This document shows, one piece after another, positions 4,440 to 63,866 of a stretch of 64,000 nt of DNA (positions are counted from its first letter, which is position 1; every line of letters begins with the position of its first letter). The position numbers were made by a program, and so were the translations under genes. The notes under the pieces are model-generated. The model did not search any database. It was not told the origin of the DNA and saw only the letters and a list, made by a program, of their open reading frames with translations. The stretch is taken from assembly GCF_037482165.1 (NCBI RefSeq), contig NZ_CP148048.1, forward strand, positions 186,001 through 250,000, given 5' to 3'. The DNA comes from Parvimonas micra. GTDB taxonomy: Bacteria > Bacillota > Clostridia > Tissierellales > Peptoniphilaceae.

Positions 4440-6137
4440 ATGAAAAATCTTAAAAATTTAGTAAAAAAAGTTTTTACATTTTCCATTGTTTTATTAACTT
4501 TGTTTGTAATACCTTTCAATAATTCTTTTGCAGACACTTTTTATAAAAATGAAATTAATGTTAAGATTAATAAAGACGGAAGTGCCGATGTTGAAAGTAT
4601 TATGGATTTTGAACCATCTAAAGGAACTGAATACTATATTCCTATAGAAAATTTAGGAAAAAGTGAAATTTTAAACTATGATGTTTCTGAAATTATAGAA
4701 GGAAAAGAAGTTCCTTATGAAACTTTAAATACTTGGAATGTAAAACAAACTAGAGAACAAAAAGCAAAGAAAGCTGGAGTTGTAAAGACTAAAAATGGCT
4801 ATGAACTCTGCTTTGGATTTGGTGAGTATCAGAGAAAAACTTTTGTTTTAAGATATAGGGTTACAAATTTTGTAAAACTTTTAAAAGACTCTGATATGGT
4901 TTATTGGCAATTTGTCAATAAGGGATTGAGTTCTGCCCCACAAGAAGTGAAAATTACTATTTCTAAAGCTGAAGGTAAATTCGATAATTCAAATTCAAAG
5001 ATTTGGGCTTTTGGAAATAAGGGAAAGATTGAATTTTTAGATGGAAAAATAGTTTTTAATAGTTTAACAGGTCTTTCTAGTTCTAATTATGTAACTATTT
5101 TAACTCAGATTAATAAAGGAGAGTTTACCTCTGGTGAAACTATAAATAAAGATTTTTCATATTATAAAGATTTAGCATTTAAAGGCTCTGATTATACTAA
5201 AAAAGCCGATAAAAAAAGTAGTAATAAGATTTTTTATGTTGCAGGAGGTATAATTGTTGCCATTGTTGTTCTTGTTAAAATATTTGGCAAGAAAAAGAGC
5301 AATGGATATCAAAAAGGAGACTTTAAAGGAGAATATTACAGAGATATTCCTGAAAAAGAATGGTGGAAATTGTCCGATATTTTAGAAGATATAGGTTTCG
5401 ATGGTCAAGAATCGATAATTAGAGCATATTTTCTAAAATGGATACAAGAAAAAATATTAATACCTGTAACTGAAGAAAAGGGACTTATTTTTAAAAAAGA
5501 CACATTGGCTTTGAAAATAAAGAGCGGTTTTAACAATGATTTCGAAGAAAAAGTAGAGAGAAAACTATTTGCTATGTTTGCAGGTGCTGCCGGAGCTGAT
5601 GGAATCTTACAAGAAAATGAGTTTTCTGATTATTTGGAAGATACGGATAATCAAGAAGAATTTGAATCAATAGAAGAAGATTTAGAAGAACTATCCAATG
5701 AATATGCAAGTAAAAATGATCTTTTTGAAAAAAGTAGTAAAGGCAAATATTCTCATACTTATAGTGAAAAAGGTAAAGAATTTACCGCAAAATTAGTAAA
5801 AAATTATAATTATTTGAAAGACTTTTCATTATTGAGTGAGAGAGAAATTTCAGAGATAAAAGTTTGGAAAAACTTGTTAATTTATGCAACGCTTTATGAT
5901 GTTGCAGATGAAGTTGAAAAACAATTAAAGAAATTATCTCCGGAATTTTTGAGAAATATAGATATGGATGTAGAATCATTGCATACGGCAGTTATTTATT
6001 CTAATGCATTCTCTAATGATTTCGTGGATGCTTATTCAAGAAGTGTTGAAGAGGCTTCTGATGGAGGTGGAGGCTTTACAAGCATCGGCGGTGGAGATGA
6101 TTCCTTCGGTGGCGGAGATGGTGGAGGAACTCGTTAA
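4440..6137 (+). CDS. DUF2207 membrane protein, copy 1
   Basis: A 565-residue membrane protein. It has a signal peptide (1-31, ending NSFA), then an extracellular beta-rich DUF2207 domain (about 33-250) with conserved stretches such as GTEYYIPIENLGKSEI, one membrane segment (about 263-284), a cytoplasmic C-terminal domain (about 295-535), and a Gly/Ser-rich tail (GGGGFTSIGGGDD). The tail is typical of DUF2207 proteins. The gene starts 14 bases after gltX behind AGGAGG. It is followed by a close paralogue and lemA; DUF2207 and LemA genes are common neighbours in other genomes. Function is unknown. Confidence 0.88.
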   Translation: MKNLKNLVKKVFTFSIVLLTLFVIPFNNSFADTFYKNEINVKINKDGSADVESIMDFEPSKGTEYYIPIENLGKSEILNYDVSEIIEGKEVPYETLNTWNVKQTREQKAKKAGVVKTKNGYELCFGFGEYQRKTFVLRYRVTNFVKLLKDSDMVYWQFVNKGLSSAPQEVKITISKAEGKFDNSNSKIWAFGNKGKIEFLDGKIVFNSLTGLSSSNYVTILTQINKGEFTSGETINKDFSYYKDLAFKGSDYTKKADKKSSNKIFYVAGGIIVAIVVLVKIFGKKKSNGYQKGDFKGEYYRDIPEKEWWKLSDILEDIGFDGQESIIRAYFLKWIQEKILIPVTEEKGLIFKKDTLALKIKSGFNNDFEEKVERKLFAMFAGAAGADGILQENEFSDYLEDTDNQEEFESIEEDLEELSNEYASKNDLFEKSSKGKYSHTYSEKGKEFTAKLVKNYNYLKDFSLLSEREISEIKVWKNLLIYATLYDVADEVEKQLKKLSPEFLRNIDMDVESLHTAVIYSNAFSNDFVDAYSRSVEEASDGGGGFTSIGGGDDSFGGGDGGGTR

Positions 6138-53925: not shown

Positions 53926-56900
53926 GTGAAGAAAAGGGAAATCATTAACAAATTGGTATCTATGCTTACTATATTCGCATTGCTTATGCCAATTGCATCT
54001 CAAGTTCATGCAGCTGATTCAGCTAAGGGTTTAGAAATTAATGCTGATCATACTGAATTGGATAAAGCTGTAAAAGAACTTAAGGATTTGGGAGTGAATC
54101 CTACACAGACTCCTACTGAAGAAAAAGGAACTGTGAAGACAAAAGCAGATGTAGATGCTAAAGTGGCTGAAGTTAAGGCTGATTATGCTCAACAAATACA
54201 ACAGCTAAAAAAAGCTAAAGAAGCAATCGAAAAATGCAACAAAGATACTCAAGCTTATGAAGCAGAAAAGAAGAAATATGACGAAGCCTTAGAAAGATAT
54301 AACAAAGCGAAGGAACAATATGATAAGGATTTAGAGGCTTATAACAAGTCAATGGAAGAGTTGAAAAAGCATAATAAGGAAGAAGGTTATTTATCTCAAC
54401 CAGTATCTCAAAACTTAAAGTTTTCTTCTGAGCCTCAAGCTAAGATGAGTATTTCAGGAGCAAAGGTATATTCACAAAATGAATTTGATTCTACTGTTAA
54501 ATCTTGGGGATATAAATCTGGATGGGGATATGCATATTTTGATGCATTAAATAAAGGACTTAAAGGTACTTCAACTCCTTTAGTTGCTGGTGATTCTAGA
54601 GTGATTTTAGAAAAGGGAAAACCTGTAACAGTAACTTATACTAATCTTCAAAAATCTTATATGAATGGTGTAAAAATTACAAAGGCTGTATTTACTTATA
54701 CTTTAAAATCAACATCACCATTACCAAATAAAGTTCCTGTTATTATCAAACAAGATCCTACTGCAACAATTTGGTACACAGACTTTTTTGGGAATACTAC
54801 TATTGGGGTTAATTTTCAACTATTTGATGAAAATGATAAACCTGTAGATTTAACAGGTGGATTATTGAGTTTTGCATCTCTTAATAAGGGACATACTCCA
54901 AAAGTGTTACCAAATTATAAAAATGCTATTGAAAAAGTTGGAAATTTCAATGGGGAATTACTAGAAATAAATGGTTCTAGTATTAAAAATCATAGTGGTT
55001 CTGCTTATGCCAATACTAGTAATGCAAATATAGAAGATGGCTCTAAGTATACAACTGGTCAATGGGATACTGAAACTTCTAAACTTAGTTGGTATGGAGC
55101 AATTGTTGGAAGGGCAAAAGGTAAGACAGTTAATTATGAAATGTCATCTAATTACTGTGGTAATATTTGGTTTGCACTTAACTCAAAAATAAAAGCTAAA
55201 GGTATTCCAATAAAACCAATGGAACCAACAAAACCAACACCTCCAACTGAACCAAAATGTCCAAAGGTAGAAGCTAAATACCATTATGATGTATTTTTCT
55301 ATCAACCACCGGTTGAAAAGAAAGTTCTTAATCAAAGTGATGCTGATATAAATAATAAAACTGTTGCTACAAATTCTGTTGTTAAATTTGTATTAAATGT
55401 TGTAAATTTACCGGCTGGACATGAAAAGCTGGAATCACTTTCATTTAAGGATAAGCTTCCATCAGGATATGAAGTTGATTTAGATGGTACAAAACAAGCA
55501 AGTTCTAATTATGATGTAAATTATGATAAGGACACTAATGAAATTACATTTACTGCAAAAGCAGAATATTTAAATACAATTAATGCTGATTTAAATAAAG
55601 AAATAAAAATATCTGCTCCTATTATTACTGGTAAAGTAACAAAAGAAGGAACAAAATATGATAATGATTTTGATTTGACTATAAATAATGACTATACTGT
55701 TAAATCTAAACCAGTTACTGTTTATACTCCAACTGAACCTAAAAAAGATGTTTTTAAAGGTAGTGATACTACTAGTATTGACGGTAAGATTGTAGAAGCA
55801 GGAGATGAATTGCGTTATGATATTACTTATAAGAATACTACAGGAACAAAACAAACTGTAACAATAACTGATAAAATTCCGCAATATACTAAATTTGTTT
55901 CTGCAGATAATGATGGTGTAGAAAATGGTGGAGTAATAACATGGGTTAAGGAAGTTGAAAATGGAGCTTCTCTAACAGTTAGTTTTAAAGTAAAAGTTAA
56001 TGATGATGTTAATGGTAATCCAATAGACAACATATCTCATGTTAAAGATGGATTTAATGAAACTGATACAAATAAGACTCATAATCCAACATCAACAAAA
56101 CCAGTAAAAGACGTTTTTGATAGCAAAGACGATAAGACAAGTATCGATGGTAATGAAGTAAAAACAGGCCAAGAACTACTTTATAAGGTTACTTACAAAA
56201 ATACTACAGGAACAAAACAAACTGTAACTATTACTGATAAGATTCCAGAACATACAACATTTGTTTCTGCAGATAACGATGGTGTAGAAAATAGTGGAAC
56301 TATTAAGTGGGTTAAAGATGTTGAAAATGGTGATTCTTTAACAGTTACATTCAAGGTAAAAGTTGATGAAAATGTAAATGGCGAAAAAATTCTAAATAAG
56401 GCTAAAGTGGTTGATGGACATAACGATTATGATACAAATGAAACAACAAATCCAACACCTACAAAGCCAGTAAAAAATGTTTTTGATAGTAAAGACGATA
56501 AGACAAGTATAGATGGTAATGAAGTAAAAGCAGGCCAAGAACTACTTTACAAGGTTACTTACAAGAATACTACTGGAAAAGAACAAACAGTAACAATAAC
56601 TGATAAGATTCCAGAACATACAACTTATGTAGAAAACTCAGCTGATAATAACGGAGTTTTCAAGGATGGAAAAATTACTTGGACTAAAGAAAAAGTAGCC
56701 AATGGAGATATATTCGAAGTTACATTTAGGGTAAAAGTTGCTGAAAACGTAAATGGTGAAAAAATTCTTAATAAAGCAAATGTAGTTGAAGGAAAGAATA
56801 GTTACGATACGAACGAAACAACAAACCCAACACCTACAAAGCCGGTAAAAGATGTTTTTGATAGTAAAGACGATAAAGCGAGTATCGATGGTAAAGAAGT

Positions 56901-59565
56901 AAAAGCGGGACAAGAACTACTTTACAAGGTTACTTATACAAATACAACTGGAAAAGAACAAGACGTAACAATAACTGATAAGATTCCAGAACATACAACT
57001 TATGTTAAAGACTCTGCAGATAATAATGGTGTTTACAAAGACAGAGAAATTACTTGGACTAAAGAAAAAGTAGCTAATGGCGAAAAATTTGAAGTTACAT
57101 TTAAAGTAAAAGTTGATGACAATGTAAGCGGAGAAAAGATTTTAAATAAGGCAAATGTTCTTGAAGGAAAAAATAGTTACGATACAAACGAAACAACAAA
57201 CCCAACATCAACAAAACCAGTAAAAGATGTATTTGAACCACAAAACGATCGTATTAGTATTGATGGACAGGTTGTAAAAGGTGACCAAGAATTACTTTAC
57301 AAAGTTACTTATACAAATACTACAGGTAAGGAACAAGACGTAACAATAACTGATAAGATTCCAGAACATACAACTTATGTAGAAAATTCTGCAGATAATA
57401 ACGGAGTTTTTAAAGACGGAAAAATTACTTGGACTAAAGAAAAAGTAGCTAATGGCGAAACATTTGTAGTTACATTTAAAGTAAAAGTTGATAATAATGT
57501 AAATGGTGAAACAATCAAAAACAAAGCAAATGTAGTTGATGGAAATAATAGTTATGATACAAACGAAACAACTAATCCAACATCAACAAAACCAGTAAAA
57601 GATGTATTTGCTCCTAGCGATAACAAAACTAGTATCGATGGTAATGAAGTAAAAGCAGGTCAAGAACTACTTTACAAAATTACTTATAAAAATACTACTG
57701 GTAATGAACAAAAGGTTGTAATTAAGGATAAAATCCCAGAACATACAACATTTGTTTCTGCAGATAATGATGGTGTATATAAAGACGGAACAATCACTTG
57801 GACTAAGGAAAAAGTAGCTAATGGCGAAACATTCGAAGTTACTTTCAAAGTTAAAGTAAATGACAATGTAAATGGAGAAAAGATTTTAAATAAGGCAAAT
57901 GTAGTTGATGGAAATAATAGTTATGATACAAATGAAACAACAAATCCAACACCTACAAAGCCAGTAAAAGATGTAGTTAGCCCTAGTGACAACAAAACTA
58001 GTATAGATGGTAATGAAGTAAAAGCAGGCCAAGAACTACTTTATAAAATTACTTATACAAATACTACTGGAAAGAAACAAACAGTAACAATAACTGATAA
58101 GATTCCAGAACATACAACATTCGTTTCTGCAGATAATGACGGAAAAGAAAATGCTGGAACTGTTAAGTGGGTTAAAGATGTTGAAAATGGAGATTCTCTA
58201 ACAGTTACATTTAAAGTAAAAGTAAATGATAATGTAAATGGTGAAAAGATTCTTAACAAAGCAAATGTAGTTGATGGAAATAATAGTTATGATACAAATG
58301 AAACAACAAATCCAACACCTACAAAGCCAGTAAAAGATGTTTTTGCTCCTAGCGATAACAAAACAAGTATCGATGGTAATGAAGTAAAAGCAGGCCAAGA
58401 ATTACTTTACAAAATCACTTACAAGAATACTACTGGAAAAGAACAAACAGTAACAATAACTGATAAGGTTCCAGAACATACAACATTCGTTTCTGCAGAT
58501 AATGATGGTGTATATAAAGATGGAACAATTACTTGGACTAAGGAAAAAGTAGCTGATAGAGAAGTATTCGAAGTTACTTTCAAAGTTAAAGTAAATGATA
58601 ATGTAAATGGAGAAAAGATTCTTAACAAAGCAAATGTAGTTGATGGAAGTAACAACTTTGATACAAATGAAACAACAAATCCAACACCTACAAAGCCAGT
58701 AAAAGATGTTTTTGCTCCTAGCGATAACAAAACAAGTATCGATGGTAATGAAGTAAAAGCAGGCCAAGAATTACTTTACAAGATTACTTACAAGAATACT
58801 ACTGGAAAAGAACAAACAGTAACAATAACTGATAAGATTCCAGAACATACAACATTTGTTTCTGCAGATAATGATGGTGTATATAAAGACGGAACAATTA
58901 CTTGGACTAAGGAAAATGTAGCGGATGGAGAAACATTTGAAGTTATATTCAAAGTAAAAGTAAATGATGATGTAAATGGCGAAAAGATTCTTAATAAGGC
59001 AAATGTAGTTGATGGAAATAACAATTTTGATACAAACGAAACAACAAACCCAACACCTACAAAGCCAGTAAAGGATGTATTTGAACCACAAAATGATCGT
59101 GTAAGTATTGATGGACAAGTAGTTAAGGCAGGACAAGAATTACTTTATAAAGTTACTTATACAAATACTACAGGAAAAGACCAAAAAGTTGTAATAAAGG
59201 ATAGAATTCCAGAACATACAACTTATGTAGAAAATTCAGCAGATAATAACGGAATTTACAAAGATGGAGAAATCACTTGGACAAAAGAAAAAGTAGCTAA
59301 TGGAGAAACATTCGAAGTTACTTTCAAAGTAAAAGTAGATGAAAATGTAAATGGCGAAAAGATTCTTAACAAGGCAAATGTATTAGATGGAAGTAATAAC
59401 TTTGATACAAACGAAACAACAAATCCAACACCATTAAGACCAAGACCACAAGTACCAAAGACAGGATATGGAGTAAATACAGGATTATATACAGTATTAC
59501 TAGGATTATCAGCTGGGGCACTTGGAGGAATGAAGATCAGATATAGAAGAAAGAGAAAGAAATAG
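53926..59565 (+). CDS. Antigen I/II-like cell-wall adhesin with ten C-terminal repeats
   Basis: 1879 residues from a GTG start nine bases after AAAGGAG; the ATG at 53919 is out of frame. Order: signal peptide (1-29, SQVHA); charged helical region (about 72-152) with tyrosine-spaced repeats such as YEAEKKKYDEALERYNKAKE, like the alanine-rich stalk of streptococcal antigen I/II; GbpC/V-type lectin-like domain (about 153-425); short proline-rich segment (about 427-450); an antigen I/II C1-like domain (about 453-605, with SVVKFVLNVVNLPAGHEKLE and KDKLPSGYEVD); ten DUF11-like repeats (611-1836); then anchor VPKTG (1843-1847), membrane helix and basic tail. Sortase-anchored surface protein, probably for binding host or other bacteria. 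Single-gene unit. Confidence 0.88.
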   Translation: MKKREIINKLVSMLTIFALLMPIASQVHAADSAKGLEINADHTELDKAVKELKDLGVNPTQTPTEEKGTVKTKADVDAKVAEVKADYAQQIQQLKKAKEAIEKCNKDTQAYEAEKKKYDEALERYNKAKEQYDKDLEAYNKSMEELKKHNKEEGYLSQPVSQNLKFSSEPQAKMSISGAKVYSQNEFDSTVKSWGYKSGWGYAYFDALNKGLKGTSTPLVAGDSRVILEKGKPVTVTYTNLQKSYMNGVKITKAVFTYTLKSTSPLPNKVPVIIKQDPTATIWYTDFFGNTTIGVNFQLFDENDKPVDLTGGLLSFASLNKGHTPKVLPNYKNAIEKVGNFNGELLEINGSSIKNHSGSAYANTSNANIEDGSKYTTGQWDTETSKLSWYGAIVGRAKGKTVNYEMSSNYCGNIWFALNSKIKAKGIPIKPMEPTKPTPPTEPKCPKVEAKYHYDVFFYQPPVEKKVLNQSDADINNKTVATNSVVKFVLNVVNLPAGHEKLESLSFKDKLPSGYEVDLDGTKQASSNYDVNYDKDTNEITFTAKAEYLNTINADLNKEIKISAPIITGKVTKEGTKYDNDFDLTINNDYTVKSKPVTVYTPTEPKKDVFKGSDTTSIDGKIVEAGDELRYDITYKNTTGTKQTVTITDKIPQYTKFVSADNDGVENGGVITWVKEVENGASLTVSFKVKVNDDVNGNPIDNISHVKDGFNETDTNKTHNPTSTKPVKDVFDSKDDKTSIDGNEVKTGQELLYKVTYKNTTGTKQTVTITDKIPEHTTFVSADNDGVENSGTIKWVKDVENGDSLTVTFKVKVDENVNGEKILNKAKVVDGHNDYDTNETTNPTPTKPVKNVFDSKDDKTSIDGNEVKAGQELLYKVTYKNTTGKEQTVTITDKIPEHTTYVENSADNNGVFKDGKITWTKEKVANGDIFEVTFRVKVAENVNGEKILNKANVVEGKNSYDTNETTNPTPTKPVKDVFDSKDDKASIDGKEVKAGQELLYKVTYTNTTGKEQDVTITDKIPEHTTYVKDSADNNGVYKDREITWTKEKVANGEKFEVTFKVKVDDNVSGEKILNKANVLEGKNSYDTNETTNPTSTKPVKDVFEPQNDRISIDGQVVKGDQELLYKVTYTNTTGKEQDVTITDKIPEHTTYVENSADNNGVFKDGKITWTKEKVANGETFVVTFKVKVDNNVNGETIKNKANVVDGNNSYDTNETTNPTSTKPVKDVFAPSDNKTSIDGNEVKAGQELLYKITYKNTTGNEQKVVIKDKIPEHTTFVSADNDGVYKDGTITWTKEKVANGETFEVTFKVKVNDNVNGEKILNKANVVDGNNSYDTNETTNPTPTKPVKDVVSPSDNKTSIDGNEVKAGQELLYKITYTNTTGKKQTVTITDKIPEHTTFVSADNDGKENAGTVKWVKDVENGDSLTVTFKVKVNDNVNGEKILNKANVVDGNNSYDTNETTNPTPTKPVKDVFAPSDNKTSIDGNEVKAGQELLYKITYKNTTGKEQTVTITDKVPEHTTFVSADNDGVYKDGTITWTKEKVADREVFEVTFKVKVNDNVNGEKILNKANVVDGSNNFDTNETTNPTPTKPVKDVFAPSDNKTSIDGNEVKAGQELLYKITYKNTTGKEQTVTITDKIPEHTTFVSADNDGVYKDGTITWTKENVADGETFEVIFKVKVNDDVNGEKILNKANVVDGNNNFDTNETTNPTPTKPVKDVFEPQNDRVSIDGQVVKAGQELLYKVTYTNTTGKDQKVVIKDRIPEHTTYVENSADNNGIYKDGEITWTKEKVANGETFEVTFKVKVDENVNGEKILNKANVLDGSNNFDTNETTNPTPLRPRPQVPKTGYGVNTGLYTVLLGLSAGALGGMKIRYRRKRKK
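55756..59433 (+). repeat. Ten tandem repeats of about 366-375 bp within the adhesin gene
   Basis: Units begin at 55756, 56119, 56485, 56860, 57235, 57610, 57979, 58345, 58714 and 59083. Each codes for about 121-125 residues with SIDG near the start, TVTITDKIPEHT in the middle and ETTNPTPTKPVKDVF at the end. The first unit is the most diverged. Units 6-9 are nearly identical over long stretches. Unit openings fall in types: DSKDD (2-4), EPQND (5, 10), APSDN/SPSDN (6-9). Confidence 0.93.
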
Positions 59566-59869: not shown

Positions 59870-61195
59870 GTGAGTGTGAACACTTTTAAAGGTGGAAAGC
59901 ATATCCACGACTTTAAAGAGTTGACTAATTCGAAGCCAATAAATTTTGGTTTTGTACCTAAGATAGTAACCATACCTCTATCACAACACTCAGGTGCACC
60001 CGCTACTTGTTTGGTTAGTAAGAATGATTTAGTAAAAGTTGGACAAAAAATTGGTGAAGCTTCAGCTTTTATTTCTGCAAATGTTCATTCAAGTGTTAGT
60101 GGAAAAGTTAAATCTATTGATGAGATTATGACTGCAACAGGTGTTATGTGTCAAGGAGTAACTATCGAAAATGATGGTTTAGACGAATTGGGATATGAAG
60201 AAAAGAATTTAACAATTGATGAAGTAAGCGCGACAGACATAATAGACGCCATAAAAGAAGCCGGAATTGTCGGACTTGGAGGTGCAGGATTTCCTACTCA
60301 TATTAAGTTAACTGCTAGAGAAGGACAAGTTACAGACTACATAATAATAAACTGCGCTGAATGTGAGCCATATTTAACAAGTGATCAACTTATGATGGAA
60401 TTATATCCTGAAAAAGTTGTTATGGGACTTTTATTAGCAATGAAAGCAATGGGGGCCAAAAAAGGTATATTAGGTATTGAGGATAATAAGCCACTTGCTA
60501 TTGATAAGTTAAAAGAAGCATCAAAATCTTATCCTGAGGTAACAGTAAGTGTTGTAAAGACTAAATATCCTCAAGGTGATCAAAAAAGGCTTATCCAAGC
60601 TACAACCGGAATAGTTGTACCTTCAGGAGCTTCTACTTCTGCGGTTGGAATAAGAGTAATAAATGCCAATACTGCGATTGCTATTAATGATGCTGTTTTA
60701 CATGGGAAACCTCTATATGAAAAGTTGGTTACTATGACAGGACATGCACTAAAAGATCCACAAAACGTTATGGTTAGAGTAGGATCAAAAGTTTCTGATA
60801 TTGTAGAATTTATTGGAGGATATGAAAGTGAACCTGGAAAAATTATTTCAGGTGGACCAATGATGGGTGAAACTCAATATACTCCTAATGTAACTACAGG
60901 TAAACCTATGGGTGGACTACTTTTTATGACTCAGGAAGAAAGCGCTCCTAAAGCTGTAAGTCCTTGCATAAGATGTGGTAGATGTGTTGATATTTGCCCT
61001 GTATACTTACAGCCTTTGTATTTACAGCTATATACTTTGAAGCATAGAGTTGAAGAAGCTGAAAAATTACATTTAATGGATTGTATTGAATGTGGATCCT
61101 GTTCATATATTTGTCCGTCAAATAGACCTTTAGTTGAAACTATTAGACTTGGAAAAGCTGAAGTTAGAAAACAAGGTAAAGGAAAGAGAGAATAA
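59870..61195 (+). CDS. rnfC: Rnf complex subunit C (RnfC)
   Basis: 441 residues from a GTG at 59870, chosen because AGAGGTGA precedes it by five bases and it gives the family N terminus VNTFKGGKHIHDFKELT. It holds the NADH/FMN-binding fold (GLGGAGFPTHIKL, INCAECEPYLTSD) and a C-terminal pair of [4Fe-4S] motifs: CIRCGRCVDICP and CIECGSCSYICP. It takes or gives electrons to NAD at the cytoplasmic side of the ion-pumping ferredoxin:NAD oxidoreductase. Order rnfC-D-G-E-A is that of clostridia. Confidence 0.96.
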   Translation: MSVNTFKGGKHIHDFKELTNSKPINFGFVPKIVTIPLSQHSGAPATCLVSKNDLVKVGQKIGEASAFISANVHSSVSGKVKSIDEIMTATGVMCQGVTIENDGLDELGYEEKNLTIDEVSATDIIDAIKEAGIVGLGGAGFPTHIKLTAREGQVTDYIIINCAECEPYLTSDQLMMELYPEKVVMGLLLAMKAMGAKKGILGIEDNKPLAIDKLKEASKSYPEVTVSVVKTKYPQGDQKRLIQATTGIVVPSGASTSAVGIRVINANTAIAINDAVLHGKPLYEKLVTMTGHALKDPQNVMVRVGSKVSDIVEFIGGYESEPGKIISGGPMMGETQYTPNVTTGKPMGGLLFMTQEESAPKAVSPCIRCGRCVDICPVYLQPLYLQLYTLKHRVEEAEKLHLMDCIECGSCSYICPSNRPLVETIRLGKAEVRKQGKGKRE

Positions 61196-61205
61196 GGAGG
61201 GTACT

Positions 61206-62663
61206 ATGGACGAAAAAGATTTAAAAGTTGAAGTCCCTTCTGAATTGGAAAAGGGAACAGATATAGATACAAAAGAAACTGAAGTCATAACTGAAAATGT
61301 TGAAGAAGTAAAAGAAGTTGAAGGTGAAAATATTGAAACAGCTTCAACTACTGAAGAAACAAAATCAGAAAGACCTGTAAGAGAAAGAAGAGAAAGAACT
61401 CCAAGAGAACCTAGAGAGAGGACAGAACGTCCTGCAAGGGAAAGAAGATCAAGAGTTGCATCTGATGATGTATCAACAAGTTCTGAAACTGTAGAAAATT
61501 CAGAATCAGGTAAAGAAGCGAAGGCAGAAAGACCCGCAAGAGAAAGACGTGAAAGAACTCCAAGAGAACCTAGAGAGAGGGCAGAACGTCCTGCAAGAGA
61601 AAGAAGAGAGAGATCTGCTGAAGCTGGAGATTCTTCAGAAGAAAGACCTACAAGGGAAAGAAGAGAAAGACCCGCAAGAGGAGGACGTAACGAAGAACCA
61701 CAAATGAGATTATTTGTTGGATCATCTCCTCATTTAAGAAGTGAAGCAACAGTAAGTACTGTTATGAGAGATGTTGTTATAGCTTTGATACCAACATTAC
61801 TTGCTGGAATTTATTTCTTTGGGTTAAGAGCATTATTAGTTACATTAGTATCTGTAGTTTTTGCTGTAGGTTCTGAATATGTTTATGAAAAATTAACACA
61901 TAGACCAATTACTATAAAAGATTATTCTGCTGTAATTACTGGTATGCTATTAGCTTTCAATGTGCCATCTACTATTCCTTATTGGATGGTTGCACTTGGA
62001 AGTATGTTCGCTATTATAATCGTTAAACAATTATACGGTGGACTTGGAATGAACTTTATGAACCCTGCACTTGCTGCAAGAGCTGCATTAATGGCATCAT
62101 TCCCAACAGCAATGGCAAATTATGCTGCACCTAATACAACAATTTCAAATTTAATAAATTCATCAACTTACTCTTCACTAGATGCTACAACTTTTGCAAC
62201 ACCTTTATCAAAGGGAACTCAAGTTAATTTTCTTGAAGCATTTATTGGTGTTAGAGGTGGTTGTATCGGTGAAGTTTCAACTATATGCTTATTGATTGGA
62301 GCTGGATATTTATTATACAGAGGAGTTATTCAACTTAGAATTCCACTAGTATTTATATCTACAACAGCAGTTGTTTTAGCTCTTACAGGAACAGCTATAG
62401 CTGATTTGCCAGTTCAACTTTTAATGGGTGGACTTATATTAGGGGCATTCTTTATGGCTACTGATTATGTATCAGCTCCCGTTAATAGAAAAGCTCAAAT
62501 ATTTTTCGCTATGGGTTGTGGTATAATTACCGCACTTATAAGAAACTTTGGTAATTTACCTGAAGGTGTAAGTTATTCTATTCTATTTATGAATATCTTA
62601 ACACCACTTTTAGAAAAATATTGTGTCCCTAAAGTTTTTGGAGAAGGGAGAGTTAAAAAGTAA
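61206..62663 (+). CDS. rnfD: Rnf complex subunit D with arginine-rich N-terminal extension
   Basis: 485 residues from the ATG at 61206, which follows AAGGAGGG. The RnfD core starts near Met167 (MRLFVGSSPHLRSE) and has about nine or ten membrane helices; FMN is probably linked to Thr in the DATTFATPL segment (family motif SGAT). The first 166 residues are an unusual, disordered-looking extension: acidic for about 50 residues, then blocks of ERPARERRERTPREPRER type. A 56-bp DNA repeat (61392-61447 and 61551-61606, two mismatches) underlies it. The extension is not part of the known RnfD fold and lies on the N-terminal, probably cytoplasmic, side. Confidence 0.93.
   Translation: MDEKDLKVEVPSELEKGTDIDTKETEVITENVEEVKEVEGENIETASTTEETKSERPVRERRERTPREPRERTERPARERRSRVASDDVSTSSETVENSESGKEAKAERPARERRERTPREPRERAERPARERRERSAEAGDSSEERPTRERRERPARGGRNEEPQMRLFVGSSPHLRSEATVSTVMRDVVIALIPTLLAGIYFFGLRALLVTLVSVVFAVGSEYVYEKLTHRPITIKDYSAVITGMLLAFNVPSTIPYWMVALGSMFAIIIVKQLYGGLGMNFMNPALAARAALMASFPTAMANYAAPNTTISNLINSSTYSSLDATTFATPLSKGTQVNFLEAFIGVRGGCIGEVSTICLLIGAGYLLYRGVIQLRIPLVFISTTAVVLALTGTAIADLPVQLLMGGLILGAFFMATDYVSAPVNRKAQIFFAMGCGIITALIRNFGNLPEGVSYSILFMNILTPLLEKYCVPKVFGEGRVKK
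61392..61606 (+). repeat. 56-bp direct repeat in the rnfD 5' part
   Basis: Two copies, 61392-61447 and 61551-61606, differ at two positions and are 159 bp apart (in frame). They encode ERTPREPRER-type arginine-rich peptide; a partial third block follows to about 61683. Confidence 0.85.
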
Positions 62664-63241
62664 TGAAAGAAACTATTAAATTGACAGTCAGATTGTTTAT
62701 AATTACTGCAATTGCAGGTTTCGTCCTTGCATTTGCAAATAGTTTTACTTCTCCGGTTATTAAAGCAAGAGAAAAGGCTCAATATGAGGCAGCTTTGAAG
62801 GAAGTTTTTTCTGATGCAGATAAGTTTGAAACTTTAGAAGAAGAAAAACTTAATACAATAAAAACAAAGATAAAAAATATAGAAAAAATAGAAGTTGCGA
62901 AGAAGTCAGATAAAACTGTGGGATATGTTTTTAAAACATTAGGAAAAAATGGTTATGGTGGAGATATTTCAATGCTTATGGCTGTAAATACCGAAAGTCA
63001 AACTATAGTTGGGTTTAAAGTTTTAAAACATAGTGAAACACCTGGACTTGGAAGTAGAGTAACGACTGATGAATATGCAAAAAGTGTTGTCGGAAACAAA
63101 GTTACTGAACATCTAGTAAAAAATTTACATCCAGATGCAGATAATGATATTCAAGCAATAACAGGAACAACAATAAGTGTTAATGCAGTTTTAAATGGAT
63201 TAAATGCCGCAATAGATGCATTACAAGAACTTGCAAAGTAG
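62663..63241 (+). CDS. rnfG: Rnf complex subunit G (RnfG)
   Basis: 192 residues. One N-terminal membrane helix (about 7-26), then an extracytoplasmic FMN domain. Covalent FMN attachment is probably at the final Thr of ITGTTISVNAV (family S/T-G-A-T). Segments VGYVFKTLGKNGYGGDISM and SETPGLGSRV are typical. TAATG overlap with rnfD gives coupled translation. Confidence 0.94.
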   Translation: MKETIKLTVRLFIITAIAGFVLAFANSFTSPVIKAREKAQYEAALKEVFSDADKFETLEEEKLNTIKTKIKNIEKIEVAKKSDKTVGYVFKTLGKNGYGGDISMLMAVNTESQTIVGFKVLKHSETPGLGSRVTTDEYAKSVVGNKVTEHLVKNLHPDADNDIQAITGTTISVNAVLNGLNAAIDALQELAK

Positions 63242-63251
63242 GAGGGACAAT

Positions 63252-63866
63252 ATGAAATTAAAAAAGATTTTCTTTGATGGTATATTTTCAAACAACCCTG
63301 TACTTGTTCAACTTGTTGGTATGTGTTCTGTTTTAGCCGTAACAACAAGTGTTGTAAATGCGATAGGTATGGGTTCATCAGTAATATTTGTAGTAACTTG
63401 TTCAAATATTGTAATTTCGAGCCTTAGAAAATTTATTCCAGATAAAGTTAGAATACCTGCTTATGTAGTAATTATTGCTACATTCGTAACATTAGTACAA
63501 ATGTTCTTATCAGCTTACATACCTGCACTTTATGATAGTTTGGGACTTTTTATACCACTTATAGTAGTAAACTGTTTAATCTTAGCAAGAGCAGAATCCT
63601 TTGCATCAAAGAATTCAGTTTTTTCATCAATGATAGACGGAGTAGGACAAGGAATTGGATTTACTTGTGCATTGATTGTACTAGCAAGTGTTCGTGAAGT
63701 TTTGGGTAATGGAACTTGGTTAGGATTTCCAATTCTTGGAAAAAATTATGTAAGTATTGGTGTTATCACACAGGCTCCAGGAGCTTTCATTATTCTTGGA
63801 CTTTTGGTAGCAGGATTCAATATGTTAAGTAAAAAAGTTAATGCTAAAAAAGAAGGAGGTAACTAA
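63252..63866 (+). CDS. rnfE: Rnf complex subunit E (RnfE)
   Basis: 204 residues from the ATG at 63252 (ribosome site AGGAGGG). Six membrane helices. [18 protein letters not shown] is the family opening, and [19 protein letters not shown] carries the conserved Cys of the membrane-embedded iron-sulfur site shared with RnfA. The stop overlaps the rnfA start by one base. Confidence 0.95.

Follow-up and report, generated by a model that had tools for sequence, protein, structure and literature searches.

A repetitive, arginine-rich N-terminal extension on RnfD in the genus Parvimonas and its possible role as a charged tether

RnfD of Parvimonas carries at its N-terminus a 166-residue, arginine-rich extension that is predicted to be disordered. 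Comparison of sequences clearly indicates that this extension exists and is read from the ATG at 61206, that it occurs throughout the genus, that its repeats turn over in copy number and that purifying selection acts on its charge. It is best read as a genus-specific variant of the accessory charged tails already known on Rnf complexes, the novelty lying in the subunit that carries it; the role of tether discussed below is itself speculative. Rnf serves many anaerobes as a primary respiratory pump, and the way in which ferredoxin reaches it is not settled; a selected charge pattern beside the RnfC/RnfB entry point bears on the question of whether charged tails supply the complex with electron carriers or keep them there. 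If true, the proposal would also place a bacterial Arg-rich mixed-charge domain outside RNA biology.

Anatomy of the extended RnfD and its operon

The gene lies in an rnfCDGEAB operon at the right end of the window (the whole 64,000-nucleotide stretch of DNA analysed here), in a Parvimonas genome of 1.55 Mb (Table 1). The extended RnfD occupies its expected place in the order rnfC-D-G-E-A-B, where rnfC, rnfG and rnfE were assigned by Pfam, rnfB by its match to 7zc6_B, and rnfA, a membrane ORF between rnfE and rnfB, by position. A single RnfD copy was found in this genome as well as in each Parvimonas species examined. Directly upstream of the operon, positions 53926-59565 encode a surface protein of 1879 aa, in which antigen I/II-type domains precede about ten DUF11 repeats and which finishes in a PKTG sequence resembling LPxTG.

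Table 1. Features of the rnf locus (window coordinates unless stated otherwise)
Feature	Coordinates	Strand	Basis or remark
rnfC	59870..61195	+	Pfam; ordinary length and ordinary C-terminus, 25 aa past last Fe-S motif
rnfD Shine-Dalgarno AAGGAGGG	61194..61201	+	overlaps rnfC stop codon (61193-61195); kept in five Parvimonas genomes and KA00581
Acidic segment, residues 1-53, conserved start MDEKDLKVEVPSE	61206..61364	+	6 positive, 19 negative residues
Arg/Glu/Pro mixed-charge block (R/E block), residues 54-166	61365..61703	+	33 Arg in 113 aa; charges evenly mixed; pLDDT <50
159-bp-spaced module, first copy (106 nt reported)	61354..61459	+	repeat comparison
159-bp-spaced module, second copy	61513..61618	+	86% identical to first
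19-aa unit 1 ERPVRERRERTPREPRERT	61368..61424	+	sequence and repeat analysis
19-aa unit 2, degenerate ERPARERRSRVASDDVSTS	61425..61481	+	sequence and repeat analysis
19-aa unit 3 ERPARERRERTPREPRERA	61527..61583	+	sequence and repeat analysis
19-aa unit 4 ERPARERRERSAEAGDSSE	61584..61640	+	sequence and repeat analysis
19-aa unit 5 ERPTRERRERPARGGRNEE, junction to core	61641..61697	+	junction RNEEPQ(M/I)KL kept in most species
Canonical RnfD N-terminal arm, residues 167-187	61704..61766	+	alignment to 7zc6_D; equivalent arm buried in RnfC in C. tetanomorphum (PMC9588780)
RnfD core, NQR2_RnfD_RnfE family	61704..62663	+	Pfam E 5e-109
rnfG, FMN-binding domain	62663..63241	+	Pfam
rnfE, Rnf-Nqr membrane protein	63252..63866	+	Pfam
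rnfB	L113:4953-5786 = G000:C1:250452-251285		about 0.5 kb past window end

The rnfD ORF (61206-62663) runs free of stops from MDEKDLKV across the junction, where RNEEPQ is followed by MRLFVG. A full-length match to PF03116 (NQR2_RnfD_RnfE; 364.7 bits against a cut-off of 27.7) at residues 171-479 places the protein in this family, and the core aligns over its whole length with RnfD of C. tetanomorphum (7zc6, E 1.8e-91) and of A. woodii (9eri, E 6.9e-85). Since the Pfam core starts at residue 171 and the two solved chains at the equivalent of residues ~163-165, the first 166 residues (61206-61703) represent an addition to an ordinary RnfD. An earlier note on this DNA, made from the letters alone, had described a disordered Arg-rich extension of this length read from 61206, with the RnfD fold beginning near residue 167; the ORF, the Pfam boundary, AlphaFold and conservation within the genus agree with that description, and charge counts bear out the acidic stretch that it placed ahead of the Arg-rich blocks.

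The R/E block contains 35 positive residues (33 Arg and 2 Lys) and 29 negative ones, so that 57% of it is charged and arginine accounts for 33 of the 35 bases; prolines recur regularly and aromatic residues are missing. The net charge is +6 for this block and -7 for the whole tail. No other stretch of an ORF in the window exceeds 10 arginines in 113 residues (mean 3.3), and the charges of the R/E block are more evenly mixed than those of 98.65% of shuffled sequences. An AlphaFold model built with 15 aligned sequences has pLDDT <50 and no structure for residues 1-177, the membrane core being mostly confident, and thus predicts the extension to be disordered. A single alpha-helix (SAH, E/R/K-rich) domain is excluded because of the prolines (12 in 166 residues), and the R/E block has no helix in the AlphaFold model. 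At E 10, no Pfam domain was found in the extension, and matches to the pattern RERRER in other genera were no commoner than in a reversed control.

The array is built on a unit with the consensus ERPxRERRER(T)PREPRER (also written ERPxRERRERTPREPRERx), 19 residues or 57 bp long, the longest copy extending over 57 nt with two mismatches. A larger module of 159 bp is present in two copies, 86% identical over 106 nt. The duplication reported in the earlier note is therefore real, but its unit, given there as 56 bp, is better described as one of 57 bp (19 aa) nested inside the duplicated 159-bp module.

Distribution, repeat turnover and selection

All six Parvimonas species examined possess the extension, which is 165-219 aa long in the five complete copies. 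The search of 114 non-Parvimonas genomes of the family retrieved nothing similar, although it also missed the diverged array of KA00581 (see below), so that a strongly diverged array elsewhere could escape it too. Elsewhere in the order, RnfD frames are at most 363 aa long among the matches listed. Apparent extensions in Flavonifractor, Pseudoflavonifractor, Eubacterium and Bacteroidales were rejected, being upstream matches that lie past in-frame stops, over rnfC or in non-coding frames. The survey of related RnfD proteins that had been proposed earlier thus finds the extension in all close relatives, that is, across the genus, and not in the other genera sampled; judging from these sequences, its restriction to Parvimonas among the sampled genomes appears real.

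Tail length differs between species because of recent module duplication: in one genome (G004), a 100-nt stretch recurs unchanged (100/100) at a spacing of 159 nt, and P. parva shows 98/100 identical nucleotides at a spacing of 147 nt. KA00581, the most diverged species, has a different repeat unit, PRERTEREPRERT, in an array interrupted by an assembly gap, and keeps the overall layout, from the MDEKDLKV start through the acidic part and the R/E/P array to the junction. The gap is a run of 100 N within rnfD (L035, L007), where the assembly breaks inside the R/E array; draft assemblies of other genomes may therefore have collapsed such arrays or dropped them.

Among the gap-free columns of five species, 47 of the 59 R/E columns are invariant versus 6 of the 39 others (Fisher p 3.5e-10, an indicative value, since columns are taken to be independent and common descent is not accounted for). 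Nineteen of these 47 invariant columns vary only at synonymous sites, and pN/pS, when pooled, comes to 0.41 for either part of the extension versus 0.11 for the core. From the mostly invariant R/E columns, the synonymous-only changes and the pN/pS value, purifying selection is seen to maintain the charge and proline pattern more than the exact sequence, at least as far as sequence comparison reveals it.

The array turns over fast, and the strongest rival to a functional tail is accordingly that it is a mostly neutral passenger, grown by slippage and dangling in the cytoplasm, of which only gross solubility and non-toxicity are selected. Shifts in copy number through the near-identical duplications in G004 and P. 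parva, the sequence turnover in KA00581, the absence of the extension from all other genera sampled and a 3.6-fold higher pN/pS than in the core all speak for it. We nevertheless regard it as rather unlikely: conservation is far stronger at charged residues and prolines than at Ala, Thr, Val and Ser, the tail has been retained in 6/6 Parvimonas species, and the acidic part, the MDEKDLKV start and the junction have been kept despite turnover of the array between them.

Placement and candidate roles of the tail

In C. tetanomorphum, the N-terminal arm of RnfD is buried within RnfC and lies in part at the interface with RnfB (PMC9588780), while in A. woodii unstructured terminal loops of RnfD bind cavities of RnfC (PMC11889175). 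RnfD proteins of these two species (7zc6 and 9eri) share with that of Parvimonas the same core and the same arm sequence (SSPH.R), but begin a few residues before the arm and possess no extension. Because the arm is intact in Parvimonas and threads into RnfC beside RnfB in the homologues, the tail should, by analogy, emerge from RnfC on the cytoplasmic ferredoxin/NADH side.

We propose that the sole Parvimonas RnfD gained a disordered Arg/Glu/Pro tail at its N-terminus, and that the array in this tail would grow and shrink through duplication of the 159-bp module under selection that keeps the pattern of charges and prolines. As the arm is threaded into RnfC alongside RnfB, the tail would exit on the ferredoxin/NADH side, where it would keep mobile RnfB domains, RnfC or ferredoxin near the complex. 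That a disordered, near-neutral tail at the RnfB-RnfC face serves as such a flexible electrostatic tether or brush is the reading that we favour, tentatively, because near-balanced charged tails recur at this face on different subunits; it may well be correct, although we would not yet call it probable. At the RnfB/RnfC face, the tail could plausibly capture ferredoxin or another partner. Counting against a tether, the RnfB and RnfC tails of relatives are rich in Lys, Glu and Ala and possibly helical, unlike the Arg/Glu/Pro tail.

A more elaborate version, which we consider doubtful, is that Parvimonas has relocated a charged capture arm to the N-terminus of RnfD, so that a respiratory pump of a bacterium would carry a selected Arg/Glu mixed-charge domain that recruits ferredoxin or links adjacent Rnf complexes, and that RnfB was redesigned in parallel, with the loss of one Fe-S cluster. 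In RnfB of every Parvimonas species examined, one [4Fe-4S] cluster of the last ferredoxin domain has lost its four cysteines; this domain reads CARVYP...NYKHGLDEDL...KCP instead of C..NCP...KC..C..C and retains ligands for only one cluster. A strict link between this loss and the RnfD extension is not supported, as another genus of the family (G021, L129) displays the loss without the extension.

The earlier note had also raised recruitment of RNA or ribosomes, or condensate formation. Such a region would place Rnf or its mRNA, in the manner of the basic tails of Oxa1/YidC or the Arg-rich domains of nuclear speckles. Tails of the Oxa1/YidC type carry a strong net positive charge, and the Parvimonas tail, at -7 overall and +6 in the R/E block, does not belong to this type. 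Arg-rich repeats with predicted disorder do favour an RNA or condensate role, as does the accumulation of eukaryotic Arg-rich mixed-charge domains in condensates (PMC9324279), and a nucleolar protein was the only match when the PDB was searched with the extension (E 0.27, not significant). In composition and disorder, the R/E block indeed qualifies as an Arg-enriched mixed-charge domain of the nuclear-speckle type. Its patterning, however, argues against the condensation and RNA localisation typical of that class: among R-rich mixed-charge peptides, blocky ones phase separate and bind RNA as well as acidic partners, whereas alternating ones do not phase separate (PMC9324279). The near-zero net charge, the missing aromatics and the even mixing of charges all weaken the proposal, and neither a protein search nor the RERRER pattern revealed a similar region elsewhere in this genome; we consider it improbable.

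Slightly more improbable still is a role in the membrane or in assembly, in which the tail would bind anionic lipid head groups or fix the topology or copy number of RnfD at insertion. Arginine favours anionic lipids, and the Arg-rich segment directly precedes the first helices. Yet glutamate balances arginine almost one to one, RnfD in every other genus sampled works without the tail, and the conserved RnfD arm sits in RnfC, away from lipid (PMC9588780).

Finally, it is very improbable that the tail is untranslated, with a true start near Met167, or cleaved off: an AGGAGG does lie ~18 nt upstream of Met167, but in this genome only, the near-Shine-Dalgarno sequence being unconserved, and Met167 itself, the residue on which the earlier note would have had its reading fall, is replaced by Ile in P. 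parva and KA00581, which rejects it as an internal start, while selection acts at the amino-acid level in the extension. The ATG at 61206, by comparison, sits a few bases 3' of the strong Shine-Dalgarno sequence AAGGAGGG, both are conserved at the same place across Parvimonas species, and the protein start M(D/E)EKDLKV is common to 6/6 of them. No published proteomics of Parvimonas Rnf was found in the open-access literature.

Comparison with known charged tails and extensions

Returning to the tether that we favour, charged tails of other Rnf subunits offer the closest comparison. RnfB bears a C-terminal tail of 32-65 aa in 7/10 Peptoniphilaceae genomes sampled outside Parvimonas, and those tails (at L130, L131, L132, L133, L136, L137 and L138) are Lys/Glu/Ala-rich with nearly balanced charge. 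A proposal for A. woodii casts the positively charged C-terminus of RnfB as a 'fishing hook' that would catch ferredoxin (PMC11889175). Like these RnfB tails, the Parvimonas extension is charged, flexible and would be located at the ferredoxin-side module; the tails of the relatives differ in being shorter, on RnfB and of another composition. In Parvimonas, the RnfB tail is only 21 aa long and that of RnfC is short too. In G023, the relative closest in RnfD identity, both the RnfD extension and a long RnfB tail are missing; a charged tail is thus not essential for Rnf.

The C-terminal tail of E. coli RsxC (314 aa, +63/-47) likewise consists of long low-complexity repeats with near-balanced charge, on an Rnf subunit that adjoins RnfD, but it is found at the C-terminus of the RnfC subunit, is rich in Ala, Lys, Gln and Glu, is likely helical and shares no sequence with the Parvimonas tail. 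In a rumen Eubacterium MAG (L039), RnfC ends in an 87-residue KAEAEKAKAEAEAAK repeat tail, encoded immediately upstream of position 5889, which resembles that of E. coli RsxC in kind. By its predicted position, the Parvimonas tail would fit a working group, rather than an established family, of long balanced-charge tails on cytoplasmic ends of Rnf subunits.

Beyond Rnf, the Arg-enriched mixed-charge domains of nuclear speckles similarly combine high arginine content with acidic residues and disorder, but theirs is an R/D type in eukaryotic nuclear proteins, whereas the Parvimonas tail pairs arginine with glutamate, has prolines at regular intervals and belongs to a membrane protein of a bacterium. 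In Na+-NQR, the N-terminus of NqrB is intertwined with NqrA (PMC9325719), and in V. cholerae this homologous subunit likewise has an N-terminal extension, partly disordered until an inhibitor binds; that stretch differs, however, in being ~54 residues long and amphipathic, in forming the quinone/inhibitor site and in being neither repetitive nor Arg-rich (PMC9325719).
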